Origin: Sphaerolaimus hirsutus
Taxonomy: Eukaryota > Nematoda > Chromadorea > Monhysterida > Sphaerolaimidae
DNA: 64,000 bases
Assembly (NCBI GenBank): GCA_964036195.1
Contig: OZ038454.1
Coordinates: forward strand, 28,754,315 to 28,818,314
Direction of reading: 5' to 3'
The notes under the pieces: model-generated
What the model was told of the DNA's origin: nothing
Databases searched by the model: none
What the model saw: the letters and a program-made list of their open reading frames with translations, nothing else
Shown here: in pieces, positions 10,422 to 50,600 of the stretch
Position numbering within the stretch: position 1 is the stretch's first letter
Layout of the letters: each line of letters begins with the position of its first letter
Translations under genes and position numbers: made by a program

Positions 10422-10549
10422 GCCATTGTTGTGACAAGTAAAGTGATAAGCTACACATTATTAATTTATCACTTTAGTTTCTGTCACCTGACTTACCACA
10501 ACTTATCACTTTCCTTGTCAATTGTCCACTTCCGTAACCGGCACCAGAT
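10422..10549. mobile_element. Fragment of the GTGCCGGTTCCGCAAGTGG MITE family
   Basis: The right end (ccacttccgtaaccggcac followed by CAG) is the reverse of the GTGCCGGTT terminus. The interior has gtgataagc / gcttatcac arms. The left end is not clear. Confidence 0.5.
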
Positions 10550-25793: not shown

Positions 25794-28700
25794 TTAATAT
25801 CTCTCCCACAAATATTTGATTCCGACCGCGGCGACGCCACACACGGCGCCCACCAGCGAGCCTTTTGCCAGCGGCACTGCAGATCTGAAATGGATACATG
25901 AAAGATTTAATATTCCGCTGACATTTCTGTTCGCTGCAGTGTAGTCTCCAGTAGGGATGGCCGTAAAAAGTTTTTCTTTCAACAACAGGGTTATTAACCG
26001 TTTTTTTCAAAAACAGGGTTTTATTTTAAAATAAAACCGTTTTTTTCAAAAGCTCCCAGATATGGGGCCAGTTCCGCAAGTGGACAAGTTACGAGTTAAA
26101 AGTTGAGTTAAATGAAAAATAGCGAGTTAAGAGTAAAGTTAAAGTTTAAGAGAAAAGTTAAAGTTTAAGAGTTGAGTTAAAATTTAATAGTTGAGTTAAA
26201 AGTTGAGTTAAATGTTAAGAGTTGAGTTGAAGGTTGAGTTAAATGTTAAGAGTTGAGTTAAAGGTTAAAAGTTGTGTTAAGTGTTGAGTTAAGAGTTGAG
26301 TTAAGAGACAAGTGGAAAATGATGATAAAACAATATAAAAAAATAAGAATGTGAAATTGGTATCGATACAACGCTCTCAAGATCCAAATTCATTTTTTTT
26401 ACATTTTCCACCATTTGTCTTTTACATCAACTTTTAACTCACCTTTTAACCTTTAACTCAACTCTTAACTCTTAACTCAACTTTTAACCTTTAACTCAAC
26501 ACTTAACATTTAACTCAACCTTTAACTCAACTCTTAACATTTAACTCAACTTTTAACTCAACCCTTAAATTTTAACTTTTCTCTTAAACTTGAACTTTTC
26601 TCTTAAACTTAAACTTTACTCTTAACTCGCCATTTGTCATTTTACTCAACTCTTAACTTTTAACTCTTAACTTGTCCACTTGCGGAACCGGCACATGGTC
26701 ATGAGTCAACATATTTACTTTGTGATGTTATATATAGCCATAGAATGGCTGTAGTGTCATGGGATCGGGTGGGCGCGCCAGCGCCATCCCTCGCTGCCGA
26801 GGGAGGGCGCAAGCGACCCACCCATAATATGGTCAGACACACCAAAATGCGGAAATCGCAAATTTAAAATCGCAATAACTTCGGAACGCAATGCGCTAGT
26901 GCAGAACCGACTGCACCATTAAAAAGCCCGTGTCGAAAAGTACCACCATGCAAATTTTCAAATCCAACGGTTGAGTTCGGAGGAACTTATTACGGATTTT
27001 CTTTTTCAAGTAGTGTTCTTGTTGTTGTTGTTGTTGTTGTTCTTGTTCTCCCGACAATCTTCAAACTGCAATAACTTCCTTGAAACACGACCGATTTTCA
27101 TGGTTGATGGCTCATTTGAAAGAGAAAATGATGCCATTTCTTATTTTCGGAAATTTTTTCACAGGCTCCGCCCACTTTGGTACGGTATCTGTTTGAAATT
27201 TTCAAACCTCAATAAATTTAAAATTTGAATACAAATGGGGCAATAAAAAAATTTGTTGATGTGTGCCATGACTAGAGCTTTCAAATGAGCCAATTTTCGG
27301 CAATTTTGGTACAGATTTACAAAAGTTATTCAAGTTTGCTTATTTTGTGTAAAATGCGCAAACATGCCCGTACTACTGCTTGATGTGATACTGAGCATGT
27401 GACCTTGCATGCTGATTACTATCAGGTCACAAATGTCTAGTGGTTGATGTCAAGTCAAATGTCAAGTTATAAATGTCAAGTCAAATGTCAAGTGATAAAT
27501 GTCAAGTGATAGATGTCTAGTGATAAAATATTAAGTGATAAAATATCAAGTCAAATATCAAGTGATAAATGTCAAGTGGTAGATTTCAAGTGAAATGTCA
27601 AGTGATAATTGTCAACTGATAAATTTCAAGTGAAATGTCAATTGATAAATGTCTGAAATGTCAATTGATAAATGTCAATTGATAAATATCAAGTGATAGA
27701 TAGTTATAAAATATCAAGTGATAAAATATCAAGTCAAATTTCAAGTGATAACTTTCAAGTCAAATGTCAACTGATAAATTTCAATTGAAATGTCAAGTTT
27801 AATGTCAAGTGATAATTGTCATGTCAAATGTCAAGTCAAATGTAAAGTGATAAATTTCAAGTGAAATGTAATGTCAAATGTCAAGTCAAATGTCAAGTGA
27901 CACATTTCAAGTCAAATGTCAAGTGACAAATTTCAAGTGAAATGTCAAGTTTAATGTCAACTCATAAATGTCAAGTCAAACATCAAGTCATATGTCAAGT
28001 CAAATTTCAAGTGATAAATGTCAAGTCAAATTTCAAGTGATAAATGTCAAGTCAAATGTAAAGTTTAATGTCAAGTGATACAATATCAAGTCAAATGTCA
28101 ACTAATAAATGTCAAGTCTAAAGTCAAGTCACGTCAAATGTCAAGTGATAAATGTCAAAGTGAATATAAAGTGATAACTTTCAATTGAAATGTCAAGTCA
28201 AATGCCAAGTGATAAATTTCAAGTGAAATGTCAAGTAATTAATTTCAAGTGAAATGTCAACTCAAATGTCAAGTTAAATGTCAAGTTTAATGTCAAGTGA
28301 TAAATGTCATGTCAAATGTCAAGTCTAATGTCAAGTTTAATGTCAACTGATAGATGTCATGTCAAATGTCAAGTTAAATGTCAACTGATAAATGTCATGC
28401 CAAATGTCAAGTGGTTAATGTCAAGTCAAATGTCAAGTTATAAATGTCAAGTCAAATGTCAAGTGATAAATGTCAAGCAATAAATGTCAGGCCAAATGTC
28501 AAGTGATAAATGTCAAGTGATAGATGTCAAGTGATAAAATATTAAGTCAAATATCAAGTGATAAATGTCAAGTGGTAGATTTCAAGTGAAATGTCAAGTG
28601 AAAAATGTCAAGTGAAAGATGTCAAGTGAAATGTCAAGTAATAAATTTCAAGTGAAATGTCGAGTCAAATGTCAAGTTAAATGTCAAGCTTAATGTCAAG

Positions 28701-31700
28701 TGATAAATGTCATGTCAAATGTCAAGTTAAATGTCAAGCTTAATGTCAAGTGATAAATATCATGTCAAATGTCAAGTTTAATGTCAAGTGATAAATGTCA
28801 TGTCAAATGTCAAGTGACAAATTTCAAGTCAAGTCAAATAACAAGTCATATGTCAAGTCAAATTTCAAGTGGTAAATGTCAAGTCAAATGTCAAGTTAAA
28901 TGTCAAGTGATCAAATATAAAGTCAAATGTCAAGTTATAAATGTCAAGTCTAAAGTCAAGTCAAATGGCAAGTAAAAAGAGAAGTGAATTGCAAAGAAAA
29001 TTGGCAAAAGTCAAATGAGAAGTGAAATGGCAAGTAAAAAATTAAATTGAAAAACTTTGATAAATGGATACTGAACTGTGATCCATAATTCTAGTTAATT
29101 TTTTTTTGTGAACAATCACATCATGCTATTGTTGCAAATATGAGTTGTACATAAAGCATGATACACTCCTTAACTCTTAATGGCGGACCAATTTCGTTTA
29201 AGAGACATTTTGCAATGAGTTTTGGATATGTCATTTAACACATAGCATATGCAAATATTGTTGGCACGCGTTGGCACCGTCCATGCCAGCCGATATTTGT
29301 AGGATGAAATTCACCCGGTCACATATAAACTTGACCCACATCCAAGTTATGGGTTGCATATTTTTGATCGAAATATAGTGCTGTTTGATGTGATACTGCT
29401 GGGTCTTCAAGGGTTATGATTTCAAATTGTGCGATTTTATGGAGTGGTGCCATCTACTCCAAAACGGTGCCATTTTCATGGAGTGGCGCCAACTACTCGA
29501 AAACGGCATCATTTTCATGGAGTGGCGCCATCTACTCCAAAACGGCACTGCCATCTACTCCAAAATGGCGCCATTTTTGTGGAGTGGCGCCATCTACTCG
29601 CAAGCATATATATTGTTCAGCAAGACACCTACTGGGTGTCATTCGGGGAAGCCTGGGCCACTGGCCACACAAAAGAAGTATATCAGTAAAAAAATGGCTA
29701 AAGCCAAACAAAAAGTGGACGCTGCCTCCACAGCAAATAGACATGAAGTGTCTTTCAAATGGACATGAAGTGCGTCTCTCAAATGGAAATAATTATATAT
29801 TGGATGCACAAAAGAAATGTATCATTCCTTAGAAAATGGCATACACTTCACTGATAACACACTTTAATGTGGTTACATATCCCACCTGAATAAAGAAACT
29901 AGACATACACATCCATGTAAAAAAAGTTTCACACCCTTCAACTATCTGAGACAAAAAGGAAAAAAATTCAGTCAAGTTTATCACAGCTGCGTGAGCTGTG
30001 CTATGTGTGTGTTTAAAACCAAAAAGCTCACGCTGCTATGATAAACTTGAGTGAATTTTTTTCCTTTTTGTCTCAGATAGTTGAAGGGTGTGAAACTTTT
30101 TTTACATGGATGTGTATGTCTAACACTGTAATCTGCCTTGAAAACTATTGAAAAAATCAAAGTCTGGGTTCAATGTGAGACATTTCTCACAATGCAGATG
30201 TAATGATATATTGCTTTTGTGCATTTAACAGTCAATACATGTAACTCTTGTGATGTAAAACAAATAGTTTCGTTATTCAGGTGGGATATGTAACCACATT
30301 AAAGTGTGTTATCAGTGAAGTGTATGCCATTTTCGAAGGAATGATACATTTCTTTTGTGCATCCAATATATAATTATTTCCATTTGAGAGACGCACTTCA
30401 TGTCCATTTGAGAGACACTTCATGTCGATTTGCTGTGGAGGCAGCGTCCACTTTTTGTTTGGCTTTAGCCATTTTTTTACTGATAGCATTATGAGTGGTG
30501 ATTTCTGTCAAAAATATATGTTTTAGGACAACTTATTACGGATATCGCCCTTTGTCGAACATTCGTGACTTCAAGTGAAAGTTCGGTATGGAAACGTGCT
30601 TAAATAAGGATATAAGAGCAGGCTAACACATTGGCAGTGGTGTTTCAGACTGCACAAGTATGTGGGGGCACATTGGCTGTATATTATATACTACACTAGC
30701 ACATCGTGGCTTATTATGACATAATAGCACAAACAAATGGAAGCTTTTACACTAAAAATGCCTCAAAACCAATGAAAACCGCCACAAATGGTAAAGTACA
30801 GGTCAAATTGCGCGCTTGCGCGCAAAAAATAGCAAAATACCTAGTGCTTAGTACTAAAAATTTTTAGCCAAGGTTTTTAAAAAAAACAACGGTTTCAATG
30901 ATCGGTTTTTTTAATAAAACGTTTTTTTATTTTTTAAAAAACCTTTGAAAAAAACCTTGGCCATCCCTAGCTCCAGTGCAGAATCCGTTTTTTTAGTATT
31001 TTTGTGTGATCTACGGCAAAAGTCAACAAAAAATTTCGAAAGTAACTTTTCTCTATTACATCTCTATCGCAATTGACAGCTTTTCATTCGTACTAGGATT
31101 AGGATGATGCCACTTTTCGATATTCGATATCAATATCGATATAGACCCTAGATATATAAAAATAGTCTATATTTGACATTCGATTTCTCCACCAAATATT
31201 CAATATCGATATTCGCCACAAAAAAGTCGACATCAGTTATCGACATTCAACACCCCCAAACCCACCTCATAGCATAAGCCTGAGGGCCCTTATAAACCAA
31301 TCCAGTAACAGTGGCCGCAGCCACAGTATTAATCTCATCGGCCACGGGCAGGGCGTTGGCGCCGAGCACGCCCACCACGCTGTACGTCAACAAGACCGTG
31401 CCCCGGGGGGCGGTCCCGGACCCTATAAAGCACCCTGTAGAATGGAAAATGTCACGCAAAGTGTCAAAAGTCACGTAAAATGCCGTGCAAAATGGCAACC
31501 GAGTTGCCATTTTGCACGGCATTTTACGTGACTTTTGACGCTTTGCGTGACATTTTCCATTCTACAGGGCACTTTACAAGGTGCGGGACTGGCACCAGGG
31601 CGCGGCCGGCCGCAGGTCCGTGCTTCACGTGGTAGTTCAGCATCTGGTTGAAGCGCACCCGTGGGGGGAGGGAACGCATCGAGGGGTCTCGTAGGAAAAG

Positions 31701-38281: not shown

Positions 38282-41200
38282 ATGAGCTCACTATCTGCCG
38301 AAGCGAAGAAATTGAAGGCGCTTTCTATGACCGAATGTTGCCAATTTCGAGAATTGAGATTGGATGAGGATACGAGCATTCCAGGTGATTGTTAATTGAT
38401 TGTTGGAAAAAAATCGATTGTTTTTAACGACCCCGATTAAAAAAAGAAAGATTTTGTTAAATAAAAATCGCTGGAGTCAAAAATAGTCCTACCGTATTTC
38501 CTCGAATTACCCCCGGGGGGTTTATTTTTTCAGAGTGAAAATTTTGAAAGAAAAACGTGAAAAATGCAACAATAACCACCATTTATAAGTTTTTACAGCC
38601 TTATATAAGGATGTAGATGGTATAAACGATGTTCTAACGTAACACAGTAAGTGTTTTGAATGTCTGTTATGCATTTCCCGGACCACAAATTCATAGTGCC
38701 CCTTTGATGGGGGGGGGTATTTCGAGGAAATACGGTATTTTTATTCAAAATCGCCCCTGTATCAGTGTTCTACTGGATTTTGAAAACACATAATCAGTTT
38801 TGATTGCATTTCAGTTTACTAAAAGAATTATTTTTCATCACCAGTCAATGTAGTTGACAGCCACCTCATTCTGGTAAACTCACGTGCAGTAAATCTGTAA
38901 ATAACTCAAGGACGTACGCAGGGGGGGCGGGGGGGGGGCGGCCGCACCCCCTTTTCCAGGGCCGGTCATAAAATTTTTCCAGTAATTACCCTTCGTAAAG
39001 CGATTTTGTAGGTACTTTGAAAATTTTTTGCGCAAGCGTGCAAACCCCACCCCGTTGTTTAATGTATCATTTTAGGAGTCCAAACAGCATTATAAAAGTG
39101 CCCAACGTCATCATAGTAACTATATGTAGGTCTTAATAGATACCTATATAGTATACGTTGGCGCCAGCGCCAACGCCAATACTGCCATGGCGCTGGCGCC
39201 TACAAATGGCGCCAGCGGCATGGCTCCATTCCTTTACTTTAGGGCCAAATTTTAGGGGGGGGGGGCGCCCCCACCCCCCCCCCGCTCGCCGGGGTCCGTA
39301 AAAAACCACCCCCGGTCCAAAATCCTGCGTACGTCCCTGAAATCACTATCTATGCTCCCACCTCAAATAAGCCCCCCCCCCATTTAGATTCGTGGGTGGA
39401 GATCTGCGCGCCGCCATCGCGCGGCTCACTGTGCAGCAGCGTCGGCTGGGCGCTGGGCAACGGCGCCAACGCCAACGCCAACGCCATTGCGCGCGGCGCG
39501 CCATTCAGACACAGCGTGCCCGCCAGCCAGCGCGACTCGCGCCACAGTCCCAAATCGCTGGCCAGGTGCCAATTCCGCAAGTGGAGAAGTGAAAAACTAT
39601 TTCAGAAGTGAGATCTTAAATGAGAAGTGTTAGGGGTTTAAAGCTAAGTCATTTTAGAAGTTAGAAATTAGGAGAAAAATTTAGAGTGATTTTAGAGAAG
39701 TACGTATGTAATTTTAGAAGTTGGAAGAACAGTTAAATGCTTGCTAGCTTTTAACTTTTTCCTTCTCATTACACTTTCCATTTTAGTTAGTTTTTACTTT
39801 TTATCTGCCATTTCACTTCTTAAATAGTTTATACTTCCAAATTAGCTGAATTGGCATCAGTCCATGCACATTGAACAATGTTGAAGTGATGAGCGATTTG
39901 GAAAGAGTCAAATACAAGATTTGCAGGGACGTGCTCAGTTGGGATTTGTCCAGTAGAATGGAGGCTGTGCCCCCAAAGTGAGCTGGTTTTTAAATTTTTT
40001 TTGCGTGGTGAAAAGTCTTAAGTGTGGTTTAGGGTTCAAACGCGATAGACTTTTCGGAATCGGGACTTCATAAGTGGCATAAAGTAGGGATGGCCGGTGT
40101 TTTTTAACTATTTAAAAAAAGTTGTTTTTAAAAAAAGAGGCATTGAAACCGTTTTTTTAAAAACATCAGCCAAAATTTTTGTACCATGTACTAGGTATTT
40201 TGCAATTTTTTTGCGCGCAAGCGGGCGATTTCACATACTGTTAAGGGCATTGCCGCCGCAGCATGTCAGCCCCTAATGTCAGCCCCTATACGAGAGGTGC
40301 GGGTTCGATTCCCGCCTGAGGCAAGTGCAATTTTGCACTCTTTCTGGTGCCGCGACCGTGGATCATACATACAGTGTGGTCCGAACACTGGTCTTTAAAC
40401 AGCACGGATATCCATCCGCTGCTTACCCCTCGGACTTTACCATTGGTGATGGTTTTTAGTTTTCAGAGGCATTTTTAGTGTAAAAGCTTCCATTTGTTCA
40501 TGCTATTGTGTCATAATAAGCTGTGATATGTTAGTGTAGCATATAATATCCAGCCAATGTGCTCCCACATACTTCTACATTGTGATCTATCACTGTCAAT
40601 GGATTAGCCTTGTATTATAACCTTATATAAGTGCTATTCCATGTAAAACTTGACTTGAAGTCACAAACATTCGACAAAAGGTGACAAAAAATGGATATTT
40701 TTGACAGGAATCACCACTTATAATGCTATCCCATAGCTCCACAGCCATTCTGTAGCTATATATAACATCACAAAGTACTGGCAATTGTTTGATATAGCTG
40801 TATATGTTGACCCATAAACATTTCTGGGAGCTTTTAAAAAATCGTTGTTGATTTAAAAAAACAGGGTCGTTAAAAAACGTTTTTTTTGGCCATTTCTAGC
40901 ATAAAGTACAAATTTTCATCGACATTTCTCACTACAAAAATGTCATTTTTCACTTTACCATTATTTGCTTCGGAATTTAGAGATTTTTCGTAATCGTATT
41001 CGGACCTCGCGATTGAGATCCCGTAATTCTAAAAATTATCGGGGTTTGGGATAGGGATTCCGTGTGAACTCTAATATCGATGCTCTAGGTAGGGTTGGCA
41101 CTTGAATTTTTTAACTGATTTTTTTAAAATCTGATTTTGTTTTAAAAAAATCAAAGGGTGGAAACTGATATTAATTTTTAAAAAATCAAAAAGCAAAATT

Positions 41201-42051
41201 TCTGGTAGACTTGCACTAGGTATCTTGCAATTTCGCATACACATTACCATTGGTGGTGTTTTCATGAGTTTTGGGGCATTTTTAGTGTAAAAGCTTCCAT
41301 TTATTAATGTTACCGTGTAATAATAAGCCATGATATGAGTGTAGTATATAATATGCAGCCAATATGTTCCCACTTACTTCTACAGTGTGTAACATCACTG
41401 TCAATGTATTAGCCTTCTCTTACAACCTTATTTAAGCACCATTCCATGCTGAACTTTACTTGAAGTTACGAATGTTCGACAAAAGACAATATATGTAATA
41501 AGTCAACATAAAAATGGATATTTTTGAAACAAATTACTGATTATGATGCTATCCCATGACTCCACAGTCATAATATGAATACATTGTCTGACACTTAACA
41601 TACACATATTTTTTCTCTAAACCCCCATTTTGGACGATTTTTAAAAAAATCTGATTTTAATTTTAAAAAATCAATTTTAAAAAATTGATTTTTTTAAAAA
41701 TCAAGGCATTTAAAAAAAAATGATTTTTTTTCCAATCCTAGCTGTAGGTGTGGATGACTACAAAAAAAATTGATAGCGAATGCTTTGAAATAATGCGGAT
41801 TTGATCCTCACATCAAAAACCACACTTCAACTCCAAATACCCCCCCCCCCCAGGGACTACCTACCAGCCGCAACGGGGGGTGGCGCAACCCTATACCTCT
41901 CGACCCCTCCAAACAGCCCCTGCCGCACCCCCCAAATCCGTCGCTGCGTGCGGCACTCGGGCATTGTCAAGTCGCCCCTATTTCGGGCTGAACTGCTGTT
42001 CGGCTTGGTAGTGTCCAATTTGGTCACCTTGTTGGTGGGAGTTTGCGTTGG
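38282..42051 (+). CDS. BNIP3: BNIP3-family mitophagy receptor, 4 exons identified, 3' exon missing
   Basis: Exons: 38282-38384, 39388-39565, 39861-39977 and 41854-42051, all GT-AG and in phase; together they encode 199 residues. BNIP3 proteins sit in the outer mitochondrial membrane and recruit LC3/Atg8 for mitophagy. Exon 2 opens with DSWVEI, matching the LIR motif region GSWVEL (core residues 37-40). Exon 3 carries VLSWDLSSRMEAVPPK, matching the family signature WDWSSRPENIPPK, after a stretch corresponding to the BH3-like segment. Exon 4 carries RHSGIVKSPLFRAELL and a membrane segment at about 179-199 ending VGVCVG. The two C-terminal glycines of the family's dimerisation motif are kept, but its histidine and alanine align with Asn and Thr. 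Exon 4 ends in a donor (GG|GTGAGT), so a short last exon coding the intermembrane tail must follow. I could not pick it among the repeats downstream. Intron 2 is exactly a MITE. The start is inferred from the ATG in frame with exon 2. Confidence 0.85.
38492..38735. mobile_element. CCGTATTTCCTCGAATTA element in BNIP3 intron 1
   Basis: Ends ccgtatttcctcgaattac and gtatttcgaggaaatacgg with TA flanks, as at 596-701. Confidence 0.75.
38907..39339. mobile_element. hAT-like poly-G element in BNIP3 intron 1
   Basis: Ends CAAGGACGTACGCAGG and CCTGCGTACGTCCCTG. Flanks AAATAACT / AAATCACT match in 7 of 8. It ends 48 nt before BNIP3 exon 2. Confidence 0.85.
39566..39860 (+). mobile_element. MITE forming BNIP3 intron 2
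   Basis: The element runs 39566-39857. It begins GTGCCAATTCCGCAAGTGG and ends GAATTGGCAT, and the reverse complement of its end (ATGCCAATTC...) repeats its start. The arms continue inward (AAACTATTTCAGAAGTGA at the left, AAACTATTTAAGAAGTGA reading inward from the right). The same terminus (GTGCCGGTTCCGCAAGTGG) is found at 26066-26696. CAG precedes the element (exon end GCCAG) and CAG follows it (39858-39860), a 3-bp target duplication. Splicing GT(39566)...CAG(39860) removes exactly the element plus one duplicate. It joins ...SLA-S-PCTLNN in frame into the recognisable BNIP3 signature. The termini and 3-bp duplication suggest a PIF/Harbinger-like origin, which is tentative. Confidence 0.85.
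40085..40898. mobile_element. hAT-like TAGGGATGGCC element in BNIP3 intron 3
   Basis: Perfect 8-bp duplication GCATAAAG (40077-40084, 40899-40906). It sits in an older GGGATC-type element (40032-41073, tagggttcaaacgcgat ... gtgtgaactcta). A tRNA-like SINE lies inside. Confidence 0.9.
40248..40450 (+). mobile_element. tRNA-derived SINE-like insert
   Basis: The perfect T-arm gcgggttcgattcccgc (40302-40318) has the B-box GGTTCGATTCC. It is followed by a non-tRNA body (ctggtgccgcgaccgtggatc). A D-arm and anticodon arm cannot be folded convincingly, so it is not called as a working tRNA. Confidence 0.6.
41090..41740. mobile_element. hAT-like TAGGGTTGG element in BNIP3 intron 3
   Basis: Ends TAGGGTTGGCA and TCCAATCCTA. 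Flanks GCTCTAGG / GCTGTAGG match in 7 of 8. The subterminal motif is AAAATCTGATTTT. It ends about 110 nt before exon 4. Confidence 0.85.
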
Positions 42052-47656: not shown

Positions 47657-50600
47657 CTAGGCGAGCCTGGCGCCGTACTGTTTCGCATAAGCGCCGAGCG
47701 CCTGCTGCACGTTGTGCGGGGCAGCGTGCAGCAGCGGCAGCAGCTGGGCTCCCTTGGCCGCGGCGGCCATCTCCAGCTGCTTGGCCAGGTGGGCGCGCGC
47801 GTCGCTCACGCCTGCGAAGCACACTAGTGCGCATACTGAGCCCACGCACGCTAGTTGACATTGGAAATTCGAGTCAACTCAATGTCAACTAAAACAAACA
47901 AGAAAATGCTTAAAAGCACCACACTTAACAGAAACATTGCAAATTAAGTGTCATGATGTGGAATTAACCATGCTGTACCAGATGGGAAAGTTGAAATAAC
48001 AAAATTCATCAAAATTTAGTTGACACAAATGCAGTTGACATCCAGTGTGTCGCCAATAGCCCATACTACGCTATGGCAGCAGGGGGGTTCCATGGGGAAA
48101 ATATTTGCCCATATACGGTAGTCGATAAATTGGACACAATAAATTGTATCGAAATCGACACGATTACATCGACAAGTATACATTTAAATAAAATGCGAAA
48201 TTGCAAAAAAGCAGCGTACCAGTGGGGTCGGTGTCGCCGGCCACGTCCGCGTAGGCGAGCGTCGCGTGGGCGGCGCTGTAGCCTTGGCTCGCTGCCAACT
48301 CTGCAGCCGCCGCCTCCTCCATCTCTTCGGCGGAACTGGCCGCCTCGTCGAGCGAACCTTCCAACAGGGAAACGGCACCGGCCACGCACGCCGACCACAC
48401 CGAGGGTCTGCGTGTACAATGTTCAATTTACTATACCGTATTTACTCAAATAAACCACAGGGAGGTTATTTTTACCGGGAGTATTTGTGCGGAGATTTGT
48501 TTAGTCAGAATTCTCACGAAAGATCGTGAAAAAATACTATTCGAAAGTATACTCGATAATGATAGTTACTGTAACTTAACATAAAATATCGATTGAAAAT
48601 GTTGATATTCAACTGAAAAAGCTACAAGAGTGGATTTTTTTCCAGCTTTGGTACTCCGATTAATTCAAGGGGCATATTCGAGGATATACGGTAGATGTGT
48701 CGAAAGCATCGAGCTCAATTTCTTAGCAAAAATCGCATGAGCTACTTGGCAGTGGCGATGGGTTCCAACAACTCGGTGGCGATGTTGGTCAGCCCCACGG
48801 CGACGATTTTCTTCTGGCGCGCGTCCGTCACTTTCGGACCCTCCTCGCCTGCGGATGGCAGTGGACAACTGATTGAAGGGGCGGCGGTTGTGAAGCTTTT
48901 TCAAGATTACTTTTTACATGGCCAATGGTAAAATCTACCGTAGAATAATTCTATCGAGTAATCTACCGCGACCTATAAATCTACCATAAAACGTAGAACC
49001 CCGTGAGCAACGGGGTAAATTATCAGCGCATCGGAAGTCTAGTTATGAACTTCTGACTAAACTTCGTGTTTGCATTTGATATTCTAGCTAAATTTTTCAA
49101 ACACTAGTTTGAAATTCCGATCAGTGTTTGTATTGTAAATTCCGATAATATTTTTCAAACACTATATAGGACATTCCAACCAGCGTTTGAAAAATATCAT
49201 CAAAATTTTCAATGCAATCAATAGTGTTTGAATAATTTGTTTGCGTATGAATGAAGTGTTCCATTTGTGCCGCAGTTATTGTCTTGGCACAGTGCCAGCC
49301 CCATTCATTTGTGCCGCTGCACGCATGCACAGGGTCGCACAGATGCGCTAAGGGTTTACATGCACTGAGAGCAGATGTACACAGGAGGCGATCGAGATGC
49401 GCAGAGACTCAGCCAGCACGCAACTCACATATAATCTTCTCGAGCACCATGAGAAACATGCCCGGCTGAATGCTGTCGAGCAGGGCGCGCAGAGTGGCGG
49501 CGCCCCTGCGCACGACCAGGCGGCACAGGAACACGACCAGGCCGCGCGAGAACTTGTTCGTCTTGCACGTCTGGTACCTGTTGAACAGCATCACCAGCAT
49601 GGGCTTGGCGTTCGGCTCCAGCGACGGCCAGTCCATGTGCTGCAGCTGCGAGCGGCGAGAAAAAAAGATATATTTTTTGGAGAAAAATTATTTTTGTTAA
49701 AAAAAATTATTTACCGTGTTTCTAGAATAACCCCACCCACGCCGAAATACCCCGAGCTATCTCGCATGCAGTAACATGCAAAGTAGAGTGTCATATGTGA
49801 AGTGTCAACGAAAATAAAAAAGAATAGATTTTATTACATTTTGCATGAGATTTGACAAATTGGTATGACATTTTAGATGACATGACCCTTTACAACGTGC
49901 GCGACTGCCAATATTGGCCCCTAGTTGACAACTAGACCAAATGTCAGCCGGTTCCAATCTCAATTCGAAGTTTGCTGACGAGCCGAGGAACGCTGCCCAA
50001 ATGCAAAATTGTTGGATCATGTTGCAAATAAAGCTGTAGGTGATGAAAAAATATTGCGGTAAATGTGCAACGTTCAAGGTAGCTGAGTATAAATATGTGC
50101 ATACAATAATGCGCAGTGTTAAGGTGAGCAAGCCTTGAATTGGGCTGGGAACCAGTTGTCATTTGGTGTCGTTGTCAACTAGTGTATGCGACAACCATTG
50201 ATCCCCAGCGCACTCACCAGGGCGGCGGCGATGACAAATGCGTACTGGTCGTTGGCCTTGCTGGCGGCGAGCATCTGGAAGACGCCGAGCAGCGGGTTGA
50301 GCTGGGCGTCGGCGACCACCCTGGCGGCGCCCACGCGCACGTACGACGCCAGCAGAGCGGACAGACTCGGCGCTGCGCACCACAGGGGGGGTGTCAGGGG
50401 GGTTGCCACCAAATGCTGAGATTTAGAATGTCAAACAGGGGTCTCCAAGATTTTGGCCCTCGCGGTGGCTGGATAGATAGCAAATCGCTCCTCCGGAGGG
50501 ATAGATAGCTGCAAATTTTTCTAGGGGGGGGGGGGCTTGGCGGCTGGCGGGGGCTTGGAGCGGCTGGCGGGGGCACAATATATGTTTAAGCTTTTTTAGG

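Follow-up and report, generated by a model that had tools for sequence, protein, structure and literature searches.

Introners are a leading candidate for the sudden gain of introns. They are reportedly treated in the work of Huff et al. 2016, and Henriet 2019 is said to deal with the introns of Fritillaria borealis. In Gozashti 2022 (PMC9860276), introners are described as DNA elements, for the most part non-autonomous, that turn into introns once inserted, with family medians of 30-654 nt and an occurrence in only two animal groups across 835 animal and land-plant genomes. For the alga Chrysochromulina, Fig. 2C of that paper places the 5′ splice site in the element and has the 3′ site co-opted, with a 4-bp target-site duplication and no terminal inverted repeats (TIRs); PIF is not mentioned in its main text. 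In the tunicate Fritillaria borealis, transposon-derived introns are mostly non-GT/AG (PMC13326754). On the transposon side, the NuwaI group of PHIS (PIF/Harbinger-ISL2EU-Spy), found in animals, is characterized by a 3-bp CWG target duplication and by TIRs usually starting with GGG, and the main text on PHIS, as far as it bears on this group, does not mention introns (PMC4482050). A literature search, limited and mostly at listing level, returned no report of introners joined with Harbinger or CWG-target transposons.

The BNIP3-Like Gene and the Element within It

In the window, that is, the whole stretch of 64,000 nucleotides analysed here, a MITE with CAG on each side interrupts a BNIP3-like gene (Table 1). 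The element lies where the first-pass annotation had located it, and the interval given there (39562-39864) takes in the proposed intron and a handful of adjoining exon letters; its numbering there as intron 2 is provisional. At 295 nt (39566-39860), the proposed intron consists of the element and one CAG, with no other sequence. When this interval is excised, the exons join in one frame (...RHSPKSLA/SPCTLNNVEVMSDLERVKYKICRDVLSWDLSSRMEAVPPK; slashes mark junctions), and the three-exon product, built from the letters of the window only (SWVEI...SWDLSSRMEAVPPK-DYLPAATGGG...SNLVTLLVGVCVG), matches Pfam BNIP3 with an E-value of 1.1e-6 (28.9 bits, cut-off 26), so that the in-frame resumption noticed at first sight is borne out. 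The Pfam signal sits 3′ of the junction: the post-junction part by itself gives E 7.1e-7, and the upstream exon by itself has no Pfam BNIP3 match. The upstream exon was joined to the product on the basis of its position, its frame and the SWVEI motif, which we liken to the LIR region of BNIP3.

As for the element itself, its outer 10 nt pair at 9 of 10 positions and its arms further in are only 70-77% complementary, which indicates that the BNIP3 copy has decayed at its 3′ end. Its 5′ half has a purine fraction of 0.64 and its 3′ half a pyrimidine fraction of 0.65.

Table 1. Positions of the BNIP3-like exons, the element with its predicted splice sites, and further family copies in the window
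Feature	Position	Strand	Remarks
Family terminus GTGCCGGTTACGGAAGTGG with 2 mismatches, from what seems to be an incomplete copy	10526..10544	-	
Second family copy, 630 nt, both termini	26065..26694	-	GTGCCGGTTCC end at 26694, GGGCC end at 26065
Exon upstream of the element	39388..39565	+	Contains SWVEI; predicted start after TTTAG; 3′ end ...CTGGCCAG
Target triplet CAG, 5′ copy, closing the exon	39563..39565	+	
MITE, 292 nt, GTGCCAATTCC...GAATTGGCAT	39566..39857	+	Opens GTGCCAATTCCGCAAG, closes GAATTGGCAT
Terminal GT of the element, proposed donor CAG/GTGCCA	39566..39567	+	Basis: frame and position
Rival internal donor GAA/GTGAGA	39608..39609	+	Keeps the frame; 42 nt (14 codons) would stay in the mRNA
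Target triplet CAG, 3′ copy; candidate acceptor	39858..39860	+	
Downstream exon (SWDLSSRMEAVPPK)	39861..39977	+	Starts TCCATGCAC; ends CCCAAA/GTGAGC
Next exon, transmembrane segment (DYLPAATGGG...LVVSNLVTLLVGVCVG)	41854..42051	+	Predicted end GG/GTGAGT

Termini, Target Triplets and Transposase

Exact matches to the terminus GTGCCRRTTCCGCAAGTGG number 1,758 in the 348-Mb genome, and its reversed control has none. With up to 3 mismatches it is matched four times in the window, against 0.05 expected, and one of these four matches is a GGGCC end. The partner terminus GGGCCRRTTCCGCAAGTGG, which carries the GGGCC end, is present at 1,506 places genome-wide. In addition, 21 of the 23 copies of up to 900 nt with an AG/GG terminus close with GGCCC; the two ends of the element therefore differ, one starting with GT and the other, read inward, with GG.

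CAG or CTG stands directly before at least 1,553 of the 1,758 exact termini, a sum over AA and AG/GG termini, and this is the CWG target triplet of NuwaI elements. Specifically, termini of the AA type stand 36 times after CAG and 28 times after CTG, and those of the AG/GG type 704 times after CAG and 785 times after CTG, so that CAG is not in excess among the latter. In 56 distinct copies with resolved ends, the flanking triplets are CAG..CAG in 23, CTG..CTG in 16, CTG..CAG in 13, CAG..CTG in 1 and other in 3, where 3′ ends were sought, in all groups, with a preference for CAG or CTG afterwards. Repeat entries of one locus were counted once, and copies longer than 900 nt were left out of the set used for composition and end type. 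TIRs combined with a short target duplication, as expected of MITEs and cut-and-paste elements, are found among these 56 copies. The original reading of the CAG flanks as a target duplication does not hold in every case, since copies with CTG before and CAG after the element are common (13 of 56).

Some individual copies deserve mention. The 26065-26694 copy is flanked by CAT on its own strand and is an exception to CWG. The sole CAG..CTG copy (L085) is doubtful, and the scarcity of this class, 1 against 13 CTG..CAG copies, would be consistent with an element contributing a T of its own (read inward) to position W and with repair of the mismatch in either direction. L006 (C407) and L043 (C1:31593835) represent one insertion, apparently in two haplotypes, flanked by CAG..CAG in one of them and by CTG..CAG in its counterpart; either a plain SNP or an insertion heteroduplex that segregated could account for this difference. 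L068, L069 and L074, on C3 and C6, have common upstream sequence (GCGGAGACAAAGCAG) and may be carried by a larger repeat; as their ends could not be resolved, these three copies were left out of the counts. As regards composition, the mean pyrimidine fraction of the 3′ half is 0.62 in 30 AA copies and 0.65 in 23 AG/GG copies, and this similarity makes it a trait of the MITE and not of genic copies.

The genome contains at least 163 matches to DDE_Tnp_4, a transposase domain of PIF/Harbinger type. By-eye comparison of the 15 such matches listed on contig C1 with the termini listed there found none within 5 kb of a terminus, and a 3.09-kb span between two termini (L100) holds MITE-like copies and other DNA, with no obvious transposase ORF. 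In most of the matches listed, this abundant DDE transposase contains an additional stretch with four in-frame TGA codons, which may be a short intron of the transposase gene. The CWG target and the GGG end suggest that the family belongs with the NuwaI group of PHIS. A GGG start at both TIRs is not found, one end being GGGCC and the other GTGCC; as one end is GTGCC, and as NuwaI TIRs start with GGG only ‘usually’, the family is not filed here as a NuwaI member.

Open Frames across the Joined Flanks

The copies sampled for coding potential comprise 30 of the 36 AA copies after CAG together with L006, L097 and L002, all 28 AA copies after CTG, and the first 30 copies on C1 by position. Among the 30 AA copies after CAG, 13 resolved with CAG on both sides and one with CTG at its 3′ side, and in 16 the ends could not be resolved; the same holds for 12 of the 28 AA copies after CTG, 3 of the 30 C1 copies and L097. 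Before counting, L003, L005 and L098 were removed for want of a terminus that the scan would match, L097 on account of its unresolved ends, and L002 as the haplotig of BNIP3. In all, 14 distinct AA loci with resolved CAG..CAG flanks, L006 and BNIP3 included, were available.

Both joined flanks stay open over 37 codons or more in 13 of these 14 loci, the exception being L087. In 20,000 draws, the GC-matched null for the same loci averages 3.95 and never exceeds 11, and 13.1% of 1,179 control positions in the flanks of resolved loci reach the 37-codon criterion. This threshold was picked after the scores had been seen; a threshold-free rank test gives p 6.6e-8. For sense-strand openness in the other classes, p ranges from 0.07 to 0.76 (AA CTG..CAG, n = 7; AA CTG..CTG, n = 9; AG/GG CAG..CAG, n = 9; other AG/GG, n = 15). 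Antisense frames are also more open than control ones in AA CAG..CAG (p 0.004) and AA CTG..CTG (p 0.013) copies. The earlier proposal that this MITE family makes introns at CAG sites can thus be retained in part: whole intron-like interruptions do recur in several unrelated genes, in the AA CAG..CAG class, and the sampled CTG-flanked and AG/GG copies are without sense-strand enrichment.

Twelve open-flank loci were compared. All carry GTGCCAATTCCGCAAGTGG at the donor side, where identity was demanded by the search pattern, and their mean identity is 71% across the opening 65 nt and 62% across the closing 40 nt, against about 50% over the full length, which points to common termini and not to one near-identical family. 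Judged from the frames, the putative introns of different genes would share sequence up to their splice boundaries, as introners do. Open frames alone support 7 of the 12 loci (L083, L089, L053, L076, L017, L082 and L006), and frames are likewise open at L075 and L079.

Homology across the junction is available for other loci. The joined flanks of L070 match 7tm_1, the rhodopsin-type receptors, with E 7.6e-9 over residues 20-85, the junction falling after residue 30. The three-exon join of L093 aligns with Speckle targeted PIP5K1A-regulated poly(A) polymerase (5wu6), presumably TUT1, with E 0.0069 over residues 4-141, an alignment that crosses the element, placed after residue 45, as well as a second intron, placed after residue 96. 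The Pfam poly(A) polymerase central domain is matched (3.8e-7, residues 87-140) in a stretch that lies 3′ of the element and runs over the second-intron junction. This second intron ends GGAATTGGCAACATTCCAG and resembles the decayed 3′ end of another family copy. At L090 a FAM166B-like match (best E 0.0014) covers the left exon only; the best PDB matches of this locus are designed Scone proteins and were disregarded. L083, L089, L053, L076 and L017 have no Pfam match above cut-off, and neither has L096, which looks receptor-like by eye.

Haplotype Divergence and Splice-Site Choice

The haplotig C680 bears the same BNIP3 insertion. Between the two haplotypes, the exon sequence next to the element has 1 substitution in 175 positions upstream and 1 in 117 downstream, whereas the middle of the element, 205 alignment columns in length, has 11 substitutions together with 14 gap columns; at the ends of the element, the first 42 nt show 1 change and the last ~50 nt plus CAG (53 columns) none. 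Haplotype divergence in the BNIP3 interval is therefore intron-like, with both ends held. Moreover, the two filled intervals have a net length difference of 4 nt, so that they cannot both be read through in one frame. Elsewhere in the window, positions 26764-28987 are repetitive, with a tandem-like array at ~27.4-29.0 kb, and a stretch neighbouring the array is inverted on the haplotig (C680:3200-4490) relative to the window; an ORF at 49409-49687 on the minus strand resembles, we presume, part of the exportin CSE1L.

Donor sites were scored at the 12 loci with a rough matrix, internal GT sites below 2 bits being ignored. On this rough scale the donor CAG/GTGCCA is weak, with 3.5 against 12.5 for the consensus, and the in-frame GAA/GTGAGA of BNIP3, 42 nt inside the element, reaches 6.5. 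Seven of the 12 loci, BNIP3 among them, have another frame-preserving donor inside the element; in the other five (L083, L090, L096, L076 and L017) none of the scored donors except the terminal GT preserves the frame. In L053, where CTG stands before and CAG after the element and the flanks are open, a strong internal in-frame donor (GTG/GTAAGT) lies 45 nt in, and the acceptor is perhaps not derived from the target.

It is unlikely, although by no means far-fetched, that BNIP3 uses the internal donor at 39608, in which case its mRNA would keep 42 nt of the element as a 14-codon scar. The higher score and the open frame speak for such a scar, as does the single haplotype difference in these 42 nt beside the divergent middle, and the addition of codons by introners is on record in a part of Gozashti 2022 (PMC9860276). 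However, the last 53 columns of the element, CAG included, are also unchanged between haplotypes, so that an end that diverges little is not necessarily coding; in addition, no scored internal donor keeps the frame in five of the 12 loci, and the intronless paralogue of L096, described below, agrees with exact removal. Scar-free splicing of BNIP3 through the terminal GT and the downstream CAG, as first claimed, is likely and is the simplest reading, which also fits the L096 paralogues. The restored frame supports that claim; its vulnerable part is the exact donor, since GAA/GTGAGA scores better and is in frame as well.

Animal genes contain many old introns, and such an intron might have been present in BNIP3 at the same position, with the MITE entering it or replacing most of it. 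The interval, however, leaves no room for non-element sequence apart from one CAG, and the exact fit between element and interruption recurs at other open-flank loci, which makes an older intron improbable.

Intronless Paralogues of L096

Empty sites were sought by querying the joined flanks of 12 loci against the genome at the DNA level. Filled sites were returned as separate halves, and a single uninterrupted match, at C14:7627271, was to the flanks of L096, a membrane-protein exon split by the element; for BNIP3 and the other 10 loci this query of the genome returned no empty site. The filled L096 site reads ...CACATCACCAG-(272-nt element)-CAG/ATTATCTG..., and the paralogue on C14 (L101) has a single CAG there, ...CACATCACCAG/ACTCTCC..., in the same frame. 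Of the 15 differences between L096 and L101 to the left of the junction, 11 fall at third codon positions, as do 14 of the 34 to the right, counted over 28 codons in gap-free alignment. At the protein level, three paralogues (C14:7627267, C2:25032268 and C14:7526136) run uninterrupted through the site in one frame and with no stop, where L096 splits. Three weak matches to L070 (E 5e-4 to 7e-3) also cross its junction uninterrupted.

The putative L096 intron is accordingly absent from the homologous sites in the three paralogues found, as expected of an introner, and was apparently gained by insertion. Precise intron loss through cDNA is an established process, and the paralogues might each have lost an intron that L096 kept, which would remove the evidence of gain. 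Such a history is highly improbable: all three paralogues found are without the intron, L101 retains the upstream TTTCAG/AACAGACT boundary and is therefore not retrocopy-like, and the sequence that splits L096 is a copy of a transposon, one that has terminal repeats and a CAG at either flank. The general CAG rule drawn earlier from BNIP3 gains from the absence of the L096 intron in the three paralogues found; it does not extend to the AG/GG termini genome-wide, given their 704 CAG and 785 CTG.

A Model for the Origin of the Intron

Taken together, the BNIP3 interval is very probably an introner, namely a non-autonomous DNA transposon that inserted at a coding CAG and is read as an intron. We infer that the BNIP3 intron arose by the same kind of insertion as that of L096, with splice sites predicted from frame and position. 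Mobilization would be due to a PHIS (NuwaI-like) transposase. Insertion at a CAG of the sense strand would leave CAG before the GT of the element, a usable though weak donor; the pyrimidine-rich second half of the element could supply branch point and tract, and the CAG downstream would act as acceptor. Use of the terminal GT and of the downstream CAG would restore the original reading frame exactly. In the opposite orientation, the usual GGGCC end would offer no GT. That the genic copies spread through RNA by reverse splicing, as proposed for fungal introners, is scarcely credible, for the copies do coincide with usable splice sites but the 1,758 exact termini, most of them after CAG or CTG, and the many sampled copies without open flanks point to DNA transposition.

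It is quite possible, if somewhat short of probable, that an animal introner lineage arose from a CWG-targeting MITE of PHIS/NuwaI type in which one of the two GGG ends became GTG, insertions at sense-strand CAG being potentially silent. The CWG preference would yield an exon end that matches U1 and an acceptor AG, and the tract would come from the inverted purine and pyrimidine arms; together with the change from GGG to GTG, these traits would make such silent insertion possible. If the element carries its own W base, as CTG..CAG flanks may indicate, it could supply the acceptor even at CTG targets, of which L053 may be a case. An animal family with a CWG rule, a terminal GT, exonic insertions and, for one gene, intronless paralogues would render intron gain directly testable in a multicellular host, where the splicing efficiency of new and old copies, the choice of donor and selection on insertions could be measured.

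Comparison with Known Systems

By every criterion assessed, and on the evidence of sequence, the family would qualify as introners, which are already known, though rarely in animals. It resembles NuwaI in its CWG target, in one GGGCC end and in its animal host, and differs from it in the GTGCC of the other terminus and in the shortness and non-autonomous nature of its copies. The host is regarded as an animal on account of its BNIP3-like gene and of a COX1 fragment, on contig C762 (14,754 bp), whose frame is open under several invertebrate-type codes that do not read AGA as a stop, and is not open under the vertebrate mitochondrial code; the arthropod cuticle family PF00379 had 0 matches, although it had none in any control genome either. 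As in the introners of Chrysochromulina, the donor would be carried by the element and the acceptor co-opted, and the length lies within the introner range; in contrast with them, the target is a 3-bp CWG, TIRs are present and the genes are those of an animal. Unlike the introners of Gozashti 2022, the copies described here share termini and not whole sequences. Finally, whereas the transposon-derived introns of Fritillaria borealis are mostly non-GT/AG, the sites proposed here are GT and AG.
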